42,684 bases of DNA. Source: Muribaculaceae bacterium (GTDB lineage Bacteria > Bacteroidota > Bacteroidia > Bacteroidales > Muribaculaceae). The translations under genes were made by a program, and so were the position numbers. Where the stretch lies: assembly GCA_017536215.1 (NCBI GenBank), contig JAFXHY010000034.1, positions 1 through 42,684 of the forward strand, in the 5' to 3' direction. Shown piece after piece: positions 8,403-42,012 of this stretch. The first letter of the stretch is position 1; every line of letters begins with the position of its first letter. The notes beneath the pieces were generated by a model. It ran no database searches and had not been told where the DNA came from. It saw only the letters and a program-made list of their open reading frames with translations.

Positions 8403-11400
8403 TTAGTGCTTTACAACCGGGAATGTAGCTTCTGCACCATTGGCATTTACCTTGAGGAGGTATAGACCATCGGCGAGATGTCCAACATTGATTGTAATTG
8501 TTTCACCATTTACAACATTGGCTGTTGAATCGATTACCTTAACCCCATTAAGGCTGTAGAGTGCAAATGAAGCATCTGCAGCATCGAAGTTGCAAGTAAC
8601 GTTGAGGATTTCTACAACGGGATTCGGGTAAATGTTAACACCGGTCTTGATAGTGATGTCGGCGATTCCTGAAGCTTCTACTACATTAACTTTGAATGTC
8701 AAAGTTGTAGATGCTCCGTTGCTATCAGTAGCTACAACAGTGATTGTTACTGTTCCAACTTCGTTGCCGACAAAGATTGCGCTTGTACCGGAAACGAATG
8801 TTGAAATGATTGTTTTAGAAGATACATAGAGTTGGTAGGTGATGTCATCGCCATCAGGATCAGTGAACATATCAGCGAAGTTGAGAACTGCTGATGTGCT
8901 ACCTTGTTCAATAGTGATATCTTCAAGAACAGTAGCTTCGGGTGCACGATTGGTGTGAGCTACGGTGTACGAAATGTCGGTCTGTGCTTCGTTGCCTACT
9001 GCATCTTTTGCAAAGAATGACATAGCGTAAGAGCCTTCATCGCCATAGTCGGGAGTAATGTCAACAGTTACGTTAACTCCGGTAGTAGCGTCAGCTCCTT
9101 CTACGTTGTAAACACCATTTTCATCTTCAGTGATAGTGCCACCTTCTACGTTGGTGATTTTGGCAAGGTTGCCATTGTCGACCATTGAGAATGTGAAGTT
9201 ATCACCTTCTACATCAAGGATATTAATGGTAGCTTGGGTAGTAGTACCTTCAGCCGCAAGGATAGTTCCTGCTTCTGATGTGATAACCGGCTTGCCATTG
9301 AGGTCCAAGTAGATGGGAAGATTGATAATAGGTTGTTGCGGGTCATTGCTCTTTATCACGAGCATTGCTTTATTGCCTTTTTCCAACGGAGCTGATGCTG
9401 CGTTGATTGCGAGATTGATGTCGACCGACTCTTGAATAGCAACTTCGCCTGATGTTGTTTCGTTGAGAAGTTTAATCCAAGGTTCACCGGGTACGGTTTC
9501 GAGTGCGGTCATGATATAACCGAGCGAGCCGTATTGGTCTTTGAACATTGAGGCAACATCAAACCATCCATAACCTTCAACATAACCCATGTAGCGGTTA
9601 GATACCACGCTTTCCTCTTTAGATGATAAATAAGCGGGGAATTTAACACCAACAGGATATGTGATGCGGATGTAGAACTCTTGACCCTCATCTAAGTAGA
9701 CTGCTTTGTCGAGTGCGGCAATAACGAAGTTTGCACCTACCATTTCATCGATATGGAATGTGCCTTTACCAACTACGGTTCCATTTTCGTAGTCGTTGCC
9801 GGCCACGATTTCAATGAGGTAGTCAACATTTTCAACCACCGATTCGATAACTCCGGTATTGCTTGTGTTAGTAAGCGTTGTTGCAAAGTATACGTGAGAA
9901 ATGTTGAAACCGCCTTCAGGTGCCACATAGTGAGTTGCGGCCTTATACAATCCATAGGTGTTGCCTGTGCCATATGAGTTAGCTGGCATACCTGTCAACG
10001 ACGGATAATATAGAGCGTTGTTGTACTCAAAATCCTGGGTTGACGGTGCGTCATACAAATTGTCAGTCTCATTGGCCAACGGTGTAATGGCTGTTTCCGA
10101 TTGAATATTTGCGCTGAGCAACTTAACCGCATCTTCACCAAGAATATTGACAGAGTGGCTTATAGGAGCGATACCACCGCCACCACCAACTTCAACTTCT
10201 TCTCCTACGCCGGTCATGTCGAGATACATGTCGTAGGTCATCTTGTATGCTCCCATGTTGGCGAGGTTGATTGTTTCTGTGCTCTTGAAATCGGGAGCGG
10301 CATTGGTAATACGTACCTCTTGTATATTTTCACCTTCTTTGCTGACATAAGCATATGGCACATCTGTAATGTTAACCGTAATAGGTATAGCTATTTCAGT
10401 AACGTCGTTGAGGCCTTCTACAGTCAACTTAAGAGTTGTCTTATATTCACCAACAATTGTATAGAGAGTCCAATATGGGTCGAATGGGAGTGAGATCTTT
10501 AATCCATCTGCTCCAACTTCGATAGGTGTACCTTGGAATGGATTCCATGTTAAAATTTCTTCTCCGGTCATCCAATCGTAACCAATGCCGTAGTAGAAAA
10601 TATAGTCGTACATTGGGAGAATATCATCCGGAGATTCGGGAAGTGGAGCTATCTCCTTAGGATCTAAGGTGATATTTGTAACAGTAAATGGAGCTGTACC
10701 TTGGTTTTCGATATTTATAAGCACTTCGAATGTTCCCATGCTACCAAATGTTCCTGCTACCGGACCACTCATATCCATATATCCTATTACATGTTCTTCA
10801 ACAATTTCTGTCGGTGTAACTACTTTTGCTTCTCCTGTAACCGAGAGGTTTACGGGGATTTCGATAGTTTCACTTCCGGGGATATTAGTGTTAATAGTGA
10901 TAGCATCGGTGTAAGAGCCAGCCATTTTATCGGTGTTGACTTCTATTCTGAGAGTTTTGCTTTCATTTGGCGCAAGTGTTGATTCAACAACGGGAATAAA
11001 TTGAACAGCATTGTTGAATTGAATCATGCGGTCGGGAATGACGATGCTTTCTGTTCCATCTTCGTTGGCTGCCCCGGCAAGGCCGAATGCATCAAAGATT
11101 ATAGCATATTCGCCGTAGCTCTTATATTGGAACTTGAACGAACCGTCTTTCTTCATGATGAGCTGGAAGCATACTCCTATATTCATAGTGTTGCCATATT
11201 CCATCCATGACACAACTACTTCGTCTTCAGTCATGTAGTGGTAGGTACCTGCAGTCTTGCTGCTGTCCATTGTGTGAAGACCCCAATAAGGCGCAATGAT
11301 ATTGGTGTAGATAGTACCTTCGGGGAATACTGCCGGAGGCTCGGGCCAAATCTTTTGGTCGTCGCGTTTGGTAAACGAGACAAATCCGGTGTTGTAGATA

Positions 11401-14400
11401 TACATCTCAGTATACTTCTCGCCATAGAATGGGAATTCAAATGGGAGAGTTACAGTTGCGTAATCATTTTGGTTGTAGAACGAGAAGTTGTTTTGTTCAC
11501 CCAAACCGGTAGTTTCGATATCCACCCATTCATATTCGGTGCCACCATCAACCGCGCTCTTATAGATATATGATACTTGAGCATCGTCGGTGATTTCATT
11601 GGTTACGTTGGTAAATGCTCCGGGAAGGGTAGAGAATTTCAAGTTTTCGTTGCCATTGTTTGTGATGGTGAGTTCTTTTTTCAACTCAGCACCGCTTGCA
11701 ACGGTTTCTGTAATGTCGGTTAGACTCAATTCAATGTTCGGGCAACCGACAACTTCACCCTTGAGAGTTGCAGTGAGAACATCGCCTACTGATGGTGTTA
11801 CTGTGATAACATCTTCAACCACCCCTTCTGTGTCGGTGGGTAGAGTCACGATGATATCCTTCGACATTCCCGGTTCGATGGTGAATGGAGTAGCCAAATC
11901 GATAGTGAATTTACCGTTGGCGATAGCAATGTCGGTAATATCAAGTGCGGCTTTTCCATTGTTCTTAACGATTACGGGAAGCTGAGCGGTTGATGTACGG
12001 AATACTTGACCGAAGTCAATTTCATAGCTTTCAAGCGTTGCGGCAGCTACCAAGTTGGCACCGGTGATGTTGGCATTAAAGCTTACGTAGGCTGTAGCTG
12101 CTTTGGGATCGTTTGTCTCAATGGTGAGGCGGTTGGTTGTAGCGCCTGCATACATTGTGTCATTGGCCTTAAGAGTCGCTTGTACGGTTACCGATTCGCC
12201 CGGGTTTACTATGTTGTAGGCCGGAGTTATCGCAGTAACGAAGTATGCCGCAGGTGCTTCAAACTTAATTGAGCTTTGAGAATCGAATTGCTTGTAAACA
12301 TCGCCTGCGGGGTCGTCGTTGTTATCCCAGTAGTCGGCAATGTTAGCAGAAGTTACCACTAATGGGTCGGTCCCTTCCGGGTCCTTGATTGCGCAGAATA
12401 ATGTAGAGCCACCTTGGAAGAGTCGGTCGGATTCCATTTCTCCATACCAGTCGTCCCATACCATTTCGGTGCGTTCATAGTCATCGTAGAAAATTTCGAT
12501 GTCGCCATTGGCTGAGAGCATAATACGGAATGAAATCGGAGAGGTCTCAACATCGTATTTAACAGCAAGTACATTTTCGTATTTAACTACGAATTTGCCG
12601 TCTTGCTTAGCATATACAACTTTAGATTGTGGACCGAACTGAAGCTGGTGGCCATAAGCTGTGATGTAGCCAATGCCATTGAGGCTTTCAGATGATTCGC
12701 TCAGCGGGGGGAAATAGCTAAGTTCTCCTAACGAGAATGAAATACCTCCGAGGCTGTTGATATAAACTTTATCGTAGGTTTTACCATAGAATGGGAAATC
12801 GAAACCGAGAGAAATAGCATCAGAGTTCTTCACGTCGTCGCTAAATTTAGCAGTGATGTCAGTGCCACCGAGAAGTGAGGGATTTCCATCGTAGGCAAAG
12901 TCGGTTGCGCCATTGAGATTAGTCAATGCGGTGTAGCCGTATTTGTGAGATGCCTTACCATGTGATGCTTCAAGTTGCTCATTAGAGAATTTGGGGAATA
13001 CGTATTCCAATGGATAGTTTCCTTCATTCTTGATAACGAAATCTTTAGTTACTGCAGAAGCGTCTACGTCGAGGTCGCCTACTTCAACCACCTCGGGCTC
13101 AATAACAATCTTAGCCGGGTCGGTGGCTACACCTTGTACTGTTATCTTGAATTCAATTCCATTGACATTCTTGAATGTGATAGTACCGGTGTGGCTGCCT
13201 GCTGCCTGCGGTGTGTATACGAGTGTTATTTTTGAAGTTGAGCGCGCCGGGAATCCTTGTACGGGGACATCTTTAATTGTATAGTGCTCAGAAGAGCTGC
13301 TAAATCCGCCGCTGGATTCTTGTAGATATCCGTATTTCCCGGTAAATGTTCCGAAGCCTTCATTAAAGAGTTCTACCTCGATAGATTTGCTTTCTCCGAC
13401 CAAGAGAGAACCGAAGTTAACCACTTTAACGGGTGCCATTTTCGGAGCGTTTCCTTTAACGGTTACAGTTGCCTGAATTTTGGTTGTGTTGGCAGTGCTT
13501 TCGTTGGTGGTGAAGCCTACATTGAATCTGTAAGTGCCGTTTACGAGTTGCTGCCCATCGTTTTTGAGTGCTACTTCTTGAGTTTCACCATACTTAACTT
13601 GCCCTTGAGCTGGTGAAAGCGTGAACACTTTGTCCCAAGCGGGGTTCTTGCTGATAGCAGTGATTGCCCATGATACTTCGTTGCCCATAGCTTCGTATGG
13701 ACTGCCTTTGAGAGCGTCGCTTAGGAGTTTCCATGTCGCACCCATGTCGTTACTCATGTAGCTGTAAGAACCATAAGAAGCATCAGCATTAGCAAGACCG
13801 AGAGGATAGTTCTCTTGATTGCTTTCAGCCGGGAAATGAGCTACTACCCAGAATGATTGACCGGGCGCGAAATAGATTTGCTCGAGGAGTTGTACTTGGT
13901 ATCCATTATAGAAATATGATGGTTTAACCTCGCCAAGAAGCGTTGCCGTGCTGATTGCTTTGCTACCATCATATATTTGAATTGTCGGACTTTGCCCGTA
14001 GGTTGAACCAACAACAACGTGAGTGAGGTTGAACCCATCGGGATATTTAGCTGGATCAACAACAAACCATTGAGCTTCAGAGTTAGGAAGCGACTTATCC
14101 GACTCTCCAATTGAAGCCCAATATTCTTTGAAGTATTGGAGTTGCATTGGGAAGTCACCGGCTACATAATCCGATGTCACGAATTCGCTTGCAGTAGAAG
14201 CATATGGTGTGATGCCCAATTTTGTTTTGGCAGTGGACAATGAGCCAATCATCGGACGAGTGCTACCAACAGAGCTGGTGGCTGCGCTAAATGATTTTGT
14301 TGCAATTTTGCCCTCCCATTTAAGCAAGCCTTCGTCGTTGTTGCTGATATTGAAGATAGCGCTACCTTCGAGGCTTGTAGAAGCGTCGATGGTCATAGTT

Positions 14401-16268
14401 AGAGAGGTCTTGTCGACCGACATTTTCGGACCGGCATTTGTAGTGGCGGATACTACTTCAGAGAGCGCAGATGCATCTCCCCAGCGGTTTACTGCTTGCA
14501 GAGCCATATAATAGGTAGTTAATGGCTCTAATCCGGTCAATTCATAAGAAGCGGCTTCGCCTGACGCAAGGAATTTAGTGTCAATGTTGATGCGCTTAAG
14601 AGTTGAGAGGTCAGCTGTTGCATTAAATTCGCTTGTGCTGTAATACAGAATGTGATTATTGACGCTGCCTTCGCTTGAATTGGGAACAGTCCATTCAAGA
14701 AGAATGTTGTCCTGTCCGGCAGTAGCAATAATTGTACCAACTGGTTCGGGCGCAGTTCCATCTCCCATTACCAACGCTTTGCCGGCATCGATGTAGCCGC
14801 TACCGAAAAGTCCTACCGCTGTGGGATTAGGAGTGTAGAAGTCGTTAACCGATGAAAGGAGCTGAGTGCGAAGTGTTTCATTTGAGAGTGTAGATTTGCC
14901 GTGTTGAGATAGAACAAGAGCTGCGATACCCGAAACGTGGGGTGTTGCCATAGAGGTACCCTCATTCCAGCCATATTGATTGTTGGGAAGAGTTGAAAGT
15001 ACACCTTCTTTCTCGCTGTAGTCCAAAAGACCACCGGGAGCTACAATATCAACCCAAGAACCATAGTTTGAGTAACCGGCAGGTGTAAGATAGCAAGTCA
15101 TAGCACCTACAGCAACAGTTGGCTCGTAGTAAGCGGGGTAATAGTTCCCTGTCTCTCCATTATTACCGGTAGCAAAGATACAGAGACCACCGGCAAGGTT
15201 ATCGCCACCGCCATATTTGGTGAAGTAGTCGATAGCATCGAGTACTTCCTGCTCATAATAGTCGGGAGAGCCCCAGCCCCATGAACATTGAGCGATTGAT
15301 GCACCGCGACGTGCTGCGTAGATTATAGCAGCCGCGAAGTCACCTTCTTGAGTGCCTGAGCGTGTATCAAAAACTTGGCATGAAATCATGCGGATACCGC
15401 TACCTTCTTCACCATTACCACCGGCAACACCGGCAACACCTTTCCCATTGTTGCTGACAGCAGCTACCGTACCGGCAACGTGAGTGCCATGGGCGTGGGG
15501 ATAGATTGCCGCAGAGTTGGTGCAGAAGTTGTAACCATAGATATCGTCAACGTAGCCGTTGTTATCGTCGTCAACACCTTCTACGCCATTGGCTTCAGAT
15601 TCGTTGATGTGAATATTGCCGGCAAGGTCTTCGTGGCTGATATCGATACCACCGTCGATGATGGCTACAATAACATCGCTACGACCGGTAGTGGTTTGCC
15701 ATGCTTCGAAAAGATTGATGTCGGCACCGGGAACTGCACCTACTGCAATGCTTCCGTCGTTGACATAGTGCCATTGTTGGCTCAACATCGGGTCGTTGAA
15801 CGGCATTGCTGAAGATGCCTTAGCTGCAACTTCTTGAGCTGTAGCTACACGGAATTTTCCATTGCCTTCTACTATTTGCATCGGGACTATGGTGTGGGCA
15901 ATTTGGACACCGGGAGTCTCGCTGAAAATTTGACTTGCTTCTTCGGGTGCAATGCTTTCGTCGAAGGAAACTTCGTACCAGCGGTTAAGACCGAATTCGG
16001 CAAGCTGAGCTTCATCCTTCGCAGAGTAAGGTATCATTCTGCGAATACTCGCTACTTTGATTTTCTTTGCTGATGCGTCAAATGGGGTGATGCCTGTGTT
16101 GACATTTCCCATTGTCTGCATGCGGGGAGTATTCCCTATTTGAGCAGCAACTTCAGGTTGCAACTTAACGCGGATTACCCCCTTCTTAGGAGTCAAAGCA
16201 GCTTCTGCAATAGTGCTACAACCCAATAACATGAGGGCTACGAGCAATTTTGAGAAGAATTTTTGCAT
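8403..16268 (-). CDS. Giant secreted subtilisin-like (S8) protease with multiple beta-sandwich modules and type IX secretion sorting tail
   Basis: A 2621-residue protein. Residues 1-23 form a signal peptide (a cysteine at 17 in LLGC makes a lipoprotein signal a remote alternative). A propeptide-like region follows to about 155, then an S8 catalytic domain at about 165-495 with the triad Asp205 (IIDGGID), His260 (HGTHVAG) and Ser439 (GTSMATPH) and oxyanion Asn369. A fibronectin type III-like domain spans about 503-606. After that come HYDIN/ASPM-like sandwiches (near 941, 1053, 1408, 1509, 1842), two modules with the FPFYG...YI motif (near 1160 and 1614), two jelly-roll-like modules (about 719-870 and 2110-2290) and a cadherin/Ig-like domain with DPDGDDITY (about 2438-2530). 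Residues from about 2544 (IYPNPVVEILNV ... LADGLYLLKV ... FPVVKH) form a type A sorting domain of the type IX system. It is therefore predicted to be exported and attached to, or released from, the cell surface. The substrate is unknown. Confidence 0.9.
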   Translation of the reverse strand: MQKFFSKLLVALMLLGCSTIAEAALTPKKGVIRVKLQPEVAAQIGNTPRMQTMGNVNTGITPFDASAKKIKVASIRRMIPYSAKDEAQLAEFGLNRWYEVSFDESIAPEEASQIFSETPGVQIAHTIVPMQIVEGNGKFRVATAQEVAAKASSAMPFNDPMLSQQWHYVNDGSIAVGAVPGADINLFEAWQTTTGRSDVIVAIIDGGIDISHEDLAGNIHINESEANGVEGVDDDNNGYVDDIYGYNFCTNSAAIYPHAHGTHVAGTVAAVSNNGKGVAGVAGGNGEEGSGIRMISCQVFDTRSGTQEGDFAAAIIYAARRGASIAQCSWGWGSPDYYEQEVLDAIDYFTKYGGGDNLAGGLCIFATGNNGETGNYYPAYYEPTVAVGAMTCYLTPAGYSNYGSWVDIVAPGGLLDYSEKEGVLSTLPNNQYGWNEGTSMATPHVSGIAALVLSQHGKSTLSNETLRTQLLSSVNDFYTPNPTAVGLFGSGYIDAGKALVMGDGTAPEPVGTIIATAGQDNILLEWTVPNSSEGSVNNHILYYSTSEFNATADLSTLKRINIDTKFLASGEAASYELTGLEPLTTYYMALQAVNRWGDASALSEVVSATTNAGPKMSVDKTSLTMTIDASTSLEGSAIFNISNNDEGLLKWEGKIATKSFSAATSSVGSTRPMIGSLSTAKTKLGITPYASTASEFVTSDYVAGDFPMQLQYFKEYWASIGESDKSLPNSEAQWFVVDPAKYPDGFNLTHVVVGSTYGQSPTIQIYDGSKAISTATLLGEVKPSYFYNGYQVQLLEQIYFAPGQSFWVVAHFPAESNQENYPLGLANADASYGSYSYMSNDMGATWKLLSDALKGSPYEAMGNEVSWAITAISKNPAWDKVFTLSPAQGQVKYGETQEVALKNDGQQLVNGTYRFNVGFTTNESTANTTKIQATVTVKGNAPKMAPVKVVNFGSLLVGESKSIEVELFNEGFGTFTGKYGYLQESSGGFSSSSEHYTIKDVPVQGFPARSTSKITLVYTPQAAGSHTGTITFKNVNGIEFKITVQGVATDPAKIVIEPEVVEVGDLDVDASAVTKDFVIKNEGNYPLEYVFPKFSNEQLEASHGKASHKYGYTALTNLNGATDFAYDGNPSLLGGTDITAKFSDDVKNSDAISLGFDFPFYGKTYDKVYINSLGGISFSLGELSYFPPLSESSESLNGIGYITAYGHQLQFGPQSKVVYAKQDGKFVVKYENVLAVKYDVETSPISFRIMLSANGDIEIFYDDYERTEMVWDDWYGEMESDRLFQGGSTLFCAIKDPEGTDPLVVTSANIADYWDNNDDPAGDVYKQFDSQSSIKFEAPAAYFVTAITPAYNIVNPGESVTVQATLKANDTMYAGATTNRLTIETNDPKAATAYVSFNANITGANLVAAATLESYEIDFGQVFRTSTAQLPVIVKNNGKAALDITDIAIANGKFTIDLATPFTIEPGMSKDIIVTLPTDTEGVVEDVITVTPSVGDVLTATLKGEVVGCPNIELSLTDITETVASGAELKKELTITNNGNENLKFSTLPGAFTNVTNEITDDAQVSYIYKSAVDGGTEYEWVDIETTGLGEQNNFSFYNQNDYATVTLPFEFPFYGEKYTEMYIYNTGFVSFTKRDDQKIWPEPPAVFPEGTIYTNIIAPYWGLHTMDSSKTAGTYHYMTEDEVVVSWMEYGNTMNIGVCFQLIMKKDGSFKFQYKSYGEYAIIFDAFGLAGAANEDGTESIVIPDRMIQFNNAVQFIPVVESTLAPNESKTLRIEVNTDKMAGSYTDAITINTNIPGSETIEIPVNLSVTGEAKVVTPTEIVEEHVIGYMDMSGPVAGTFGSMGTFEVLINIENQGTAPFTVTNITLDPKEIAPLPESPDDILPMYDYIFYYGIGYDWMTGEEILTWNPFQGTPIEVGADGLKISLPFDPYWTLYTIVGEYKTTLKLTVEGLNDVTEIAIPITVNITDVPYAYVSKEGENIQEVRITNAAPDFKSTETINLANMGAYKMTYDMYLDMTGVGEEVEVGGGGGIAPISHSVNILGEDAVKLLSANIQSETAITPLANETDNLYDAPSTQDFEYNNALYYPSLTGMPANSYGTGNTYGLYKAATHYVAPEGGFNISHVYFATTLTNTSNTGVIESVVENVDYLIEIVAGNDYENGTVVGKGTFHIDEMVGANFVIAALDKAVYLDEGQEFYIRITYPVGVKFPAYLSSKEESVVSNRYMGYVEGYGWFDVASMFKDQYGSLGYIMTALETVPGEPWIKLLNETTSGEVAIQESVDINLAINAASAPLEKGNKAMLVIKSNDPQQPIINLPIYLDLNGKPVITSEAGTILAAEGTTTQATINILDVEGDNFTFSMVDNGNLAKITNVEGGTITEDENGVYNVEGADATTGVNVTVDITPDYGDEGSYAMSFFAKDAVGNEAQTDISYTVAHTNRAPEATVLEDITIEQGSTSAVLNFADMFTDPDGDDITYQLYVSSKTIISTFVSGTSAIFVGNEVGTVTITVVATDSNGASTTLTFKVNVVEASGIADITIKTGVNIYPNPVVEILNVTCNFDAADASFALYSLNGVKVIDSTANVVNGETITINVGHLADGLYLLKVNANGAEATFPVVKH

Positions 16269-39371: not shown

Positions 39372-39412
39372 CGAGAGGTTGTGCGAGACATCGCACAACC
39401 TCTCGTTTTTTT
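39372..39412 (+). terminator. Strong terminator after rpoC
   Basis: A 15-bp perfect stem (CGAGAGGTTGTGCGA at 39372-39386, complement at 39391-39405) with the loop GACA, followed by seven T. The 166 bases from here to the holin-like gene hold no recognisable gene, only weak promoter-like sequence (TGAATTTG at 39523-39530) and a GGAGGTG at 39543. Confidence 0.95.
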
Positions 39413-39578
39413 ATGTAGTCGTCAAAAGGAGCCGGGGGCGGGAGGAAACCTATAGTATAGTGGCTAATTGGTGGGACACAAAGAATTGTTATTATTGCGA
39501 ACTTTCGGAATAAAAGGGAGTATGAATTTGACGCATATCGGAGGAGGTGATGGAGTAATTTTGTGAAAGAAATCATAA

Positions 39579-40019
39579 ATGGGAATAATAATAATTAAAC
39601 TAAACAGAGCTATGAGGGAATTTTTAATCGAGCATTTTTTTGAACATGGAGTTTGGATAGTACTGACCTATGTATTTGTGCTTGTGGCGATGGGTGCAGA
39701 TTTGATAACCGGAGTTAGAAAGTCACGAAAGTTGGGGCATAAAATCAACTCGCGAGGTTATAAGCGTACGTGCAGTAAAGCATTGAATTATTTTTTGCCG
39801 TTGACGTGTATGTCGTGCATTGATATGTTGGCATCGGTTGTTATCAGTGTGCCGATATTGACAATGGTGTTTGGGTGTTATTGTGTGTTCTGTGAACTAA
39901 AATCGGTACTTGAAACTACCCACGATAAGGATATGATACGCAATGAAGTCAAAGAATTGCTTGAAATAGGAGGGAATCTCAAAGAATTGAAAGAAAAGAT
40001 TTATACACTTTTAAAATAG
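39579..40019 (+). CDS. Phage holin-family membrane protein
   Basis: A 146-residue protein with two or three membrane segments: about 24-43 (VWIVLTYVFVLVAMGADLI), then about 67-85 and 87-105. The motif ADLITGVRKSRKLGHKINSRG fits the Phage_holin_4-type pattern (PF05105: an aspartate-TG followed by a basic helix). Holins collect in the inner membrane and open lesions that let endolysins reach the cell wall. An in-frame ATG at 39612 (MREFLIEHFF) is an alternative start. The amidase gene follows after 7 bases. No capsid, integrase or tail gene is nearby. The family call rests on pattern and context. Confidence 0.78.
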   Translation: MGIIIIKLNRAMREFLIEHFFEHGVWIVLTYVFVLVAMGADLITGVRKSRKLGHKINSRGYKRTCSKALNYFLPLTCMSCIDMLASVVISVPILTMVFGCYCVFCELKSVLETTHDKDMIRNEVKELLEIGGNLKELKEKIYTLLK

Positions 40020-40026
40020 AATAAAA

Positions 40027-40434
40027 ATGAGACAGATTAATGAGATAATAGTGCATTGCAGTGGGACGCCTCGAGGAATGGAAGTAAAAGCTGCCGATAT
40101 TCATCGATGGCATTGTGAGAGAGGATGGAACGGTATCGGTTATCACTATGTGATAGGTCTAAACGGTGATATAGAGATAGGGCGAGAAGAGAATGAGGTA
40201 GGCGCGCATTGCAAAGGACATAATGCACATTCGATAGGGATATGCTATGTAGGGGGGCTGTCGAGTGATGGAAGAGAGGCAATAGATACTCGCACAGATG
40301 AACAACGAGTGGCTTTAACCGAGTTGATAATGGATTTGCGGGAGCGTTATCCACGAGCAAAGGTGTATGGGCATCGAGATTTTGCCAACAAAGAATGTCC
40401 ATGTTTTGATGTGCACAAAGAATGGCAGAAATGA
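40027..40434 (+). CDS. N-acetylmuramoyl-L-alanine amidase, T7-lysozyme-like endolysin
   Basis: A 135-residue zinc amidase (Amidase_2, PF01510) that cuts the bond between MurNAc and L-alanine in peptidoglycan. Zinc ligands are His10 (IIVHCSG), His116 (YGHRDF) and Cys124 (KECPC). Tyr39 and Lys122 match catalytic Tyr46 and Lys128 of T7 lysozyme with identical spacing, so the enzyme looks active. No signal peptide or wall-binding domain is present, so it would stay in the cytoplasm until a holin opens the membrane; the gene for a holin-like protein is just upstream. The stop codon overlaps the start of the next gene (ATGA). Confidence 0.92.
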   Translation: MRQINEIIVHCSGTPRGMEVKAADIHRWHCERGWNGIGYHYVIGLNGDIEIGREENEVGAHCKGHNAHSIGICYVGGLSSDGREAIDTRTDEQRVALTELIMDLRERYPRAKVYGHRDFANKECPCFDVHKEWQK

Positions 40435-40883
40435 TGAGGTGGATAAAAATTGGAGTGGTATTAATACTAATCGAAATCGTGACTGGTTGTCGTGCAAAAC
40501 AAGAAGCGACTGAGAACGCAGTGATTGATGTTGAGAAGGGGATAGAAGCAAGGCAAGAACTGGAAAGAGAAATAAGTGTTAACGCAACAATAGATGAGAA
40601 TTTAGTATTAGAGAACCCGGTTATAGAAATTCAAGACAATGAGGGTGGCGGGATAGTGGTAATACGTGGAGAGAAGCTAATCAGAGGACGTCAAGGGGTT
40701 AAGGAGATAGCATCGGAAAATAAAAATGTGGAATATAAGAATGTAGCAGAGAAAACAGAGATTGCAGAGAATCAAGAGGTGAGAACCGAAGTAAAAGTAG
40801 GGATTGACAAAACTTATCTAATTATCGGCATTGTAATATTTATACTACTAATCGTAATAATTAAAAATAAAAAATTAAAATAG
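40431..40883 (+). CDS. Small lipoprotein with C-terminal membrane helix, candidate unimolecular spanin
   Basis: A 150-residue protein. The N-terminus is a lipoprotein signal (MMRWIK, hydrophobic stretch, lipobox VTGC with Cys20). A charged Glu/Lys-rich middle of about 105 residues follows, then a single hydrophobic helix (YLIIGIVIFILLIVII) and a basic KNKKLK end. An outer-membrane lipid anchor at one end and an inner-membrane helix at the other is the layout of u-spanins such as T1 gp11, which fuse the two membranes in the last step of phage lysis. The ATG at 40431 overlaps the amidase stop; an in-frame ATG at 40422 is possible but less fitting. No sequence family is recognised, so the call is from topology and position. 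Confidence 0.65.
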   Translation: MMRWIKIGVVLILIEIVTGCRAKQEATENAVIDVEKGIEARQELEREISVNATIDENLVLENPVIEIQDNEGGGIVVIRGEKLIRGRQGVKEIASENKNVEYKNVAEKTEIAENQEVRTEVKVGIDKTYLIIGIVIFILLIVIIKNKKLK

Positions 40884-40912: not shown

Positions 40913-40920
40913 TAACTTTG
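40913..40920 (+). promoter_or_regulatory. Candidate -7 promoter box for the YitT-family gene
   Basis: TAACTTTG fits TAnnTTTG and lies 103 bases upstream of the ATG at 41023. No clear TTTG is seen at the -33 distance. It implies that the YitT gene is transcribed separately from the lysis-like cassette. Confidence 0.5.
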
Positions 40921-41022: not shown

Positions 41023-42012
41023 ATGAAACTGAGCAATCCAAAAATATGGGTAAATGCTAAAGACTATTTCTTTATAGTCTTCGGCATTTTTTTGTATGGT
41101 ATTGGCTTTTCTGCATTCATCGCTCCACATGATGTGATTACCGGTGGAATGGCAGGTGTCGGTCAGGTAGTGTTTTATGCTACAGAGGAGTTGTTAGGCT
41201 ATGGCATACCGGTAGCCGTTACGATGTATGTTGTAAATATACTTTTGTTAGTTTTTGCATATCACATAGTAGGCAGGACATTTGTAGTCAGGACAATATT
41301 TGGAGTTACAATGGTGTCGCTTGCGGTCGGTGTTCTAATGCCGTTGTTCCCGGAGCCGTTAATAAAAGATGAGATATTTATGAGTATCGCCATCGGTTCA
41401 ATATTGAGCGGAATCGGCTTAGGACTGGCCTTTGCGCATAATGGCTCGTCGGGAGGAACAGATATAGTAGCCGCAATGATGGCGAAAAAGACGAATGTTT
41501 CAGTAGGGCGCACGATGCAATATTGTGATTTCTGTATCATTTCATCATCATTGATTATATTCGGGATGGATGACGGTATCGAGCGTTTGGTCTATGGATT
41601 TGTAGTGCTTATGATAGTGTCGATGATGGCCGATCAAGTAATCAATACGAATCGCCAGGCAGTGCAATTTATCATATTTTCCCCTCGACATTGGGAGGAA
41701 ATAGCAACAGCAATTAACAATGACGCACATCGCGGTTGCACGGTACTCAACGGCATGGGGTGGTACAGCAAGCAGGAAGTAAAAGTGTTGCTCGTAATGT
41801 GTCGCAAAATAGAGGCAGTTACAATTCATCGTATCATCAAGTCGATAGATAAAGATGCTTTAGTAACTCAAGCTAATGTTAATGGAGTTTATGGTCTCGG
41901 TTTTGATGAATTGAAGTTGAAGATGCCCAAACCCAAAGGCTCGCATCACGAAGCAGATACTATAAAAAGTCGGGTTGGCGCAGATGTTGAAGTAAAAAGT
42001 GATAAAGCATAG
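41023..42012 (+). CDS. YitT-family membrane protein (DUF161/DUF2179)
   Basis: A 329-residue inner-membrane protein with about five or six helices in residues 15-200 and a soluble C-terminal DUF2179 domain (about 210-300). Family features are GIGFSAFIAPHDVITGGMAG near the N-terminus, AHNGSSGGTDIVAAM in the middle, and RGCTVLNGMGWYSKQEVKVL in the C-terminal domain. The function of YitT proteins is not settled; they are widespread in Firmicutes and Bacteroidetes. The C-terminus is extended by a charged tail. It converges on trpS across a long palindromic terminator. Confidence 0.92.
   Translation: MKLSNPKIWVNAKDYFFIVFGIFLYGIGFSAFIAPHDVITGGMAGVGQVVFYATEELLGYGIPVAVTMYVVNILLLVFAYHIVGRTFVVRTIFGVTMVSLAVGVLMPLFPEPLIKDEIFMSIAIGSILSGIGLGLAFAHNGSSGGTDIVAAMMAKKTNVSVGRTMQYCDFCIISSSLIIFGMDDGIERLVYGFVVLMIVSMMADQVINTNRQAVQFIIFSPRHWEEIATAINNDAHRGCTVLNGMGWYSKQEVKVLLVMCRKIEAVTIHRIIKSIDKDALVTQANVNGVYGLGFDELKLKMPKPKGSHHEADTIKSRVGADVEVKSDKA

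Follow-up and report, generated by a model that had tools for sequence, protein, structure and literature searches.

A three-gene lysis cassette downstream of rpoC in a Muribaculaceae genome probably serves to release a particle that resembles a short-tailed phage, is domesticated and vertically kept, and has its genes dispersed in the chromosome (a GTA-like viriform). The cassette lies in a 42,684-nucleotide stretch of DNA (the window), which is contig C190 of a 1.8 Mb MAG (G000) that is 69% complete. The remaining genes of the putative particle are scattered among housekeeping genes, and in the window's genus (g1) several of them carry the same rare promoter sequence as the cassette. A particle released by its own lysis genes, as in GTAs, is the most economical reading of these observations.

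The rpoC-linked lysis cassette

The preliminary description had proposed three tightly packed genes at this locus, and three real open reading frames (39579-40019, 40027-40434 and 40422-40883, all +) do occupy the interval from the rpoC terminator to yitT. The intrinsic terminator (39372..39412, +), visible in the sequence as a hairpin followed by a T-run, insulates the cassette from rpoC. On the other side, yitT (41023..42012, +) is a conserved downstream neighbor that adjoins the cassette in g1 and g15 genomes, and it is probably a separate transcript because it has its own TAnnTTTG box (40913-40920), again read from the sequence. Homologues in relatives place the likely starts of the first and third genes at 39612 and 40431, downstream of the mechanical ORF boundaries (39579 and 40422), and it is the start at 40431 that yields the previously noted ATGA overlap with the amidase gene.

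The first gene, hol (39612..40019, +), encodes a holin-like membrane protein of 135 aa with three hydrophobic segments. It matches Pfam Phage_holin_4_1 (PF05105) at 1.2e-6, with 29.1 bits against a gathering score of 22.2, as well as phrog_20732 (6.5e-22), and thus combines the two hallmarks of the PF05105 holin family, a score above gathering and several membrane helices. The second, ami (40027..40434, +), encodes a T7-lysozyme-type N-acetylmuramoyl-L-alanine amidase (endolysin), also of 135 aa, that matches Amidase_2 (PF01510; 2.4e-17) and phrog_822 (2.2e-60), with T7 lysozyme (1lba) as its closest solved structure (2.6e-31). The His-His-Cys zinc ligands (H10, H116, C124) and the catalytic Tyr and Lys (Y39, K122) that define this type are all there and are invariant across aligned relatives; a signal peptide is absent, as is typical of such amidases, and so is a membrane helix. 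The third gene (40431..40883, +) encodes a 150-aa lipoprotein with a VTGC lipobox, a single helix at residues 128-146 and a positive tail. Profile searches returned no family match for this protein, with an Rz-like hit at 0.34 only and no significant spanin profile. Seven diverged homologues (16-28% identity) likewise have the lipobox and the terminal helix, such that all eight aligned proteins have the topology of a unimolecular spanin, an N-terminal lipobox with a C-terminal inner-membrane helix, and we label the protein a putative u-spanin on that topology alone. The identities first assigned to the holin, the amidase and the C-terminally anchored lipoprotein therefore stand; the expectation that all three would match in profile or structure searches was borne out for holin and amidase, and the spanin assignment is one of topology.

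The locus is widely maintained. The cassette keeps its order beside yitT in most species of g1 and in a second genus, g15. Among six sister species (L031-L036) the three genes remain in order, with hol orthologues at 67-75% in five of them, and the arrangement around them varies: L031, L033 and L034 carry the hol-to-yitT block between rpoC and trpS in the orientation opposite to that of the window, the cassette has been rearranged again together with trpS in L032, and the L035 contig does not include rpoC. The window's own order, rpoC-hol-ami-(lipoprotein)-yitT, recurs in g15 (L056/L094) and is therefore probably ancestral. Seven of the eight g15 genomes have the holin; the eighth (L142, G112) has lost it and retains amidase and lipoprotein between rpoC and yitT. 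Holin and amidase lie elsewhere in the g1 member G003, where yitT stands without the cassette, and the remaining genomes checked, most of which belong to other genera, have yitT elsewhere and likewise without it. Genus g14 (L109, L110) has a holin followed by a fused amidase-lipoprotein ORF, downstream of a gene for a LexA/CI-like repressor and with no phage structural genes nearby.

Substitution rates were estimated by YN00, and because most saturated pairs gave no usable estimate, values are quoted from closer pairs only. In the closest pair, dN/dS was 0.06 for the holin, 0.10-0.11 for the amidase and 0.35-0.40 for the lipoprotein, with 0.01-0.03 for the comparison genes yitT and trpS; the proposed test of selection thus found strong purifying selection on holin and amidase (about 0.06-0.1). 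By these measures, the cassette is a module that is inherited vertically and under selection, and its third protein evolves fast. The earlier suggestion of a domesticated lysis or release module under selection agrees with a locus that is kept across species and two genera, with intact residues and purifying selection.

Dispersed particle genes and a shared promoter sequence

The cassette had been called an orphan, with no phage structural, integration or replication gene nearby. Within the nearby window we likewise recognized none, and the term is apt for the rpoC-yitT locus; it does not extend to the genome, because capsid, portal, adaptor and nozzle genes occur elsewhere in the same MAG. 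In g1 the particle genes form three units, whose surrounding housekeeping genes we named from sequence. Unit A is the terminase large subunit TerL (phrog_2, 5.7e-28) and unit C is p855, beside metG, each alone among housekeeping genes. Unit B, between metK and recO/rpsT/dnaX, is an operon encoding a scaffold-like protein, an SU10-type MCP (SU10_MCP, PF17236; 1.9e-48), p177, a P22-type portal (P22_portal, PF16510; 8.9e-18), p148 and p147. No informative sequence match to p855 was found in Pfam or PHROGs, and it was identified by structure only: the structural matches of its model (pLDDT 85.9) are nozzle proteins of short tails, among them the SU10 tail (E 1.4e-10) and that of phicrAss001, and the model superimposes on Pa223 (Z 21.8, 412 aligned, 3.2 A) and P22 gp10 (Z 19.2). 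By its modeled fold, p855 is a podoviral tail nozzle. The best structural matches of the p177 model (pLDDT 87.7) are all short-tail adaptors (phicrAss001 at 8e-4, SU10, N4 and others), and because VIA Z values are only 5-7, the adaptor identity rests on the consistency of these top hits and on synteny with the portal. On the strength of the gene matches and the nozzle and adaptor folds, units A-C correspond to the head and neck of a short-tailed phage, along with its nozzle and packaging motor. Their dN/dS values are 0.06-0.09 for TerL, 0.06-0.11 for the MCP, 0.13 for the portal and 0.16-0.26 for p855.

The MAG that contains the window has its capsid operon on contigs C208 and C200 and its nozzle gene on C193. 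TerL was not found in this MAG and is present in sister species; its absence may reflect incompleteness of the assembly. The portal gene (L228 1864-3303, G000:C200) contains one in-frame TAG and sister-species copies are intact, so that either this strain may have a damaged system or the MAG is in error there. A second capsid operon in the MAG (G000:C169, L230) equals one from genus g5 (G132) in model score and is probably on a contaminating contig. Elsewhere in the window, positions 8403-16268 (-) encode a 2621-aa secreted subtilase with a HYDIN-like Ig domain and a type IX sorting tail.

Capsid and terminase genes are spread across the family. The MCP model matched 311 of 397 Muribaculaceae genomes and the TerL model 364, each in 29 of 30 genera and nearly always in one copy. 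The two genes lie mostly on different contigs; on single contigs they are 956 kb apart in G013 and 103 kb apart in G016, and they are close in few genomes (G064, G189, G044). In most of the other genera that were examined, p855 is directly upstream of TerL, and in G044 both are clustered with the capsid operon; the three stand apart from one another in g1. We considered whether the units could be one ordinary prophage split by assembly and rejected this reading, since housekeeping genes flank each unit on both sides and the parts are far apart on large contigs. TerL flanks differ between genera, and the loci move. Across genera, distance congruence was r 0.20 for TerL and MCP (not significant) and r 0.48 for TerL and yitT (34/5000). 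Within g1 the particle genes occupy fixed syntenic loci, and their vertical inheritance in this genus is supported. Outside Muribaculaceae, some Bacteroidales families also have the MCP, and in four of them (L242, L243, L246, L247) the capsid cluster adjoins a fumarate hydratase (fumarase-like) gene, suggesting an old fixed locus. Scans of viral contigs with the holin and capsid models returned only one weak and four short contigs. The short IMG/VR viral contigs L315-L318 carry this capsid (58-61%) and may be pieces of bacterial chromosome.

A conserved candidate promoter upstream of hol (39521..39563, +) reads TATGAATTTGACGCAT, 19 bases, then the Bacteroidota -7 box TAATTTTG. In aligned hol upstream regions of other g1 species it is the one conserved block (TATGAWTTTGACGCAT-N19-TAATTTTG), kept though the upstream neighbor differs (rpoC or trpS) and present in degenerate form in G004. 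The strict motif has 1-13 exact copies per genome in six of the eight g1 genomes, with none in any reversed control, and a loose core (TGACGCAT-N17..21-TANNTTTG) has 2-11 copies in the same six, with 0 or 1 in reversed controls; G003 and G004 have no exact site. The motif precedes three further phage-derived units, TerL, p855 and the capsid operon. Exact copies stand at hol, TerL and p855 in G001, G005 and G007, and in G002 each of the four phage-derived units has the motif, the copy at p855 with one A/G variant that was allowed for. Outside G002, the window's own genome included, the site at the capsid operon is looser and keeps the CGCAT-N19-TAATTTTG core, and no promoter site was found at p855 in the window's genome. 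Assuming 1500 transcription units, the chance of such overlap between motif and phage-derived units is 3e-9 to 1e-7 per genome.

Host genes carry the motif too. It stands ahead of ilvA in several species, ahead of an efflux gene, ahead of scattered genes in G002, and, as an exact copy of the cassette promoter, ahead of a gene pair for a small unknown protein and a peptidyl-prolyl isomerase in four species (L159, L160, L167, L173). A phage-only regulon is weakened as a reading by ilvA and the other host genes; because the motif precedes them, it may mark a class of promoters and not a regulon dedicated to these units. At L155, L166, L176 and L180, motif sites of the form TGTAACNTTTTGACGCAT are followed by a GGACATTGACGTATTTG-like stretch with no clear ORF; no convincing encoded gene was found in that downstream stretch, and these sites are possibly small RNAs.

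Proposed lysis and particle release, and rival readings

In other lineages, lysis genes are physically joined to particle genes. A holin homologue overlaps the adaptor-portal operon of genus g16 in a housekeeping context, a PF05105/phrog_20732 holin and an endolysin (phrog_894) lie inside the capsid cluster of another Bacteroidales family, and a similar endolysin-like protein and a lipoprotein adjoin structural genes in a further one. These arrangements, together with the shared promoter in g1, are the basis on which we link lysis to the particle. Lysin type differs between lineages, from which it appears probable that lysis enzymes have been exchanged over time. Several observations weigh against the GTA-like reading: most Muribaculaceae genera with capsid and TerL are without this holin-amidase-lipoprotein set, one g15 genome has lost the holin, the motif also precedes host genes and has no site at p855 in the window's genome or in G003 and G004, the window's MAG yielded no TerL and has the interrupted portal gene, and TerL-MCP congruence across genera is weak while TerL flanks change.

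If the GTA-like reading is correct, the shared promoter class would turn on the cassette together with scaffold, capsid, adaptor, portal, nozzle and terminase, probably in a small number of cells, and the particle would assemble and package DNA. The holin would then open the inner membrane and give the cytoplasmic amidase access to peptidoglycan, which it would cut, and the lipoprotein with its terminal helix would disrupt or fuse membranes, whereupon the cell would burst and release its particles. Co-expression, particle formation, DNA packaging, lysis and DNA transfer are each predicted here from gene content and arrangement.

GTAs are recognized by caudoviricete proteins, endogenization, mostly vertical inheritance with co-diversification with the host, packaging of mostly random host DNA and delivery of that DNA to cells, by a particle that cannot package its own full gene set (PMC9662315). 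Two of these marks are seen here, in a system known from genes alone: tailed-phage structural proteins (MCP, portal and TerL, with nozzle and adaptor recognized by structure) and full endogenization, often at several loci in GTAs and in g1 at four loci with housekeeping flanks. Packaging of the whole gene set as one molecule is implausible because the genes are dispersed. Like RcGTA, BaGTA and BhGTA/VSH-1 (PMC9662315), the system comprises tailed-phage head and packaging genes (here also lysis genes) at several loci, near-single-copy and under purifying selection, with no integrase or replication genes seen alongside. It differs from them in its Bacteroidota host, its SU10/P22/crAss-like short-tail parts, the relocation of its loci between genera, and a shared promoter sequence for which no activator was identified.

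The main rival is a T10SS-like role independent of the particle, in which the cassette lyses a subpopulation to free proteins or vesicles, has no relation to the capsid genes, and uses a promoter that is merely of a general class. We regard this as possible but considerably less probable than release of a particle. A cluster of holin, endolysin and spanin outside bacteriophages, the genomic mark of a T10SS, is present here, with the spanin judged by topology, and it lies outside prophages beside essential genes, as do Serratia ChiWXYZ and Yersinia YenLC (PMC10847048); moreover, the motif also occurs at host genes, and the cassette is distributed more narrowly than the capsid genes. Compared with those systems, the cassette has a single putative unimolecular spanin, a T7-type amidase in place of an endopeptidase, and a promoter link to particle genes, and no regulator, exoprotein or other cargo gene adjoins it. 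A T10SS-like role also leaves unexplained why a rare exact motif stands at three or four phage-derived loci per genome in four species, and why holin homologues are linked to particle genes in other lineages.

The same genomic evidence that favors a GTA-like system would fit a dispersed, phage-like particle that the cassette releases and that serves killing or storage without DNA transfer, and no transfer or recipient function was identified. We consider it unlikely, since an intact-looking TerL, present along with portal, adaptor and nozzle, speaks for a particle that packages and ejects DNA. Slightly less likely still is a prophage remnant that has no current function and has not yet been lost. 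Its phage ancestry is clear, the lipoprotein diverges fast, and one genus member lacks the cassette beside yitT; against this, the cassette occupies the same locus in two genera, is intact in nearly all genomes, and retains its promoter and purifying selection on holin and amidase. Remnants are strain-specific and decaying, with phage genes or integration scars nearby, and the cassette does not fit this description; the isolate-specific prophage remnant raised in the preliminary description is rejected on its conservation across species under purifying selection. Least probable of all is altruistic lysis as an anti-phage or stress defense, with the cassette captured for abortive infection: a host-controlled lysis module could serve this end, and the g14 set behind a LexA/CI-like regulator fits it, but in g1 no sensor or toxin partner lies beside the cassette and its promoter is common to capsid, terminase and nozzle genes.

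Relation to known phages and meaning for Muribaculaceae

The closest phages found were the Bacteroides phages BF1-TP2, BS-TP4 and BKO1-TP3 (MCP 39-40%, TerL 38-40%), of which BF1-TP2 also has homologues of the portal, p177 and p148. They differ from the dispersed system in having genomes of 64-68 kb with the genes together, and in the 30 kb of BF1-TP2 examined nothing matched this holin, amidase or nozzle by sequence. A prophage of the window's MAG (L037 13894-19092, G000:C67) exemplifies Bacteroidales prophage lysis cassettes, with a homologous amidase (57%) and a spanin-like lipoprotein with a C-terminal helix behind tail genes; unlike that set, which lies inside a prophage, the window's cassette occupies a fixed chromosomal locus.

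A 2026 study of packaged gut DNA reported GTA-like packaging in Oscillospiraceae and Ruminococcaceae, and, for Bacteroides, only lateral transduction (PMC12946183). The literature we searched contained no Bacteroidota GTA, and as many subscription papers and preprints fell outside its coverage, this absence is not proof; a dispersed GTA-like particle is apparently undescribed for Bacteroidota. We see about an even chance that an ancient GTA lineage that descends from SU10/crAss/P22-like short-tailed phages was independently domesticated in Muribaculaceae and several related Bacteroidales families, and that in g1 it is split into four or more units at separate places under one promoter sequence, with the rpoC-linked cassette as its release module.

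Members of the Muribaculaceae are abundant in the guts of mice and other animals. The system looks testable, as one of the sister species is a named isolate, Muribaculaceae bacterium Isolate-002 (NCI). If the GTA-like reading is true, a particle conserved across the family and equipped with its own lysis module would give these bacteria a concrete route for gene exchange and programmed death.
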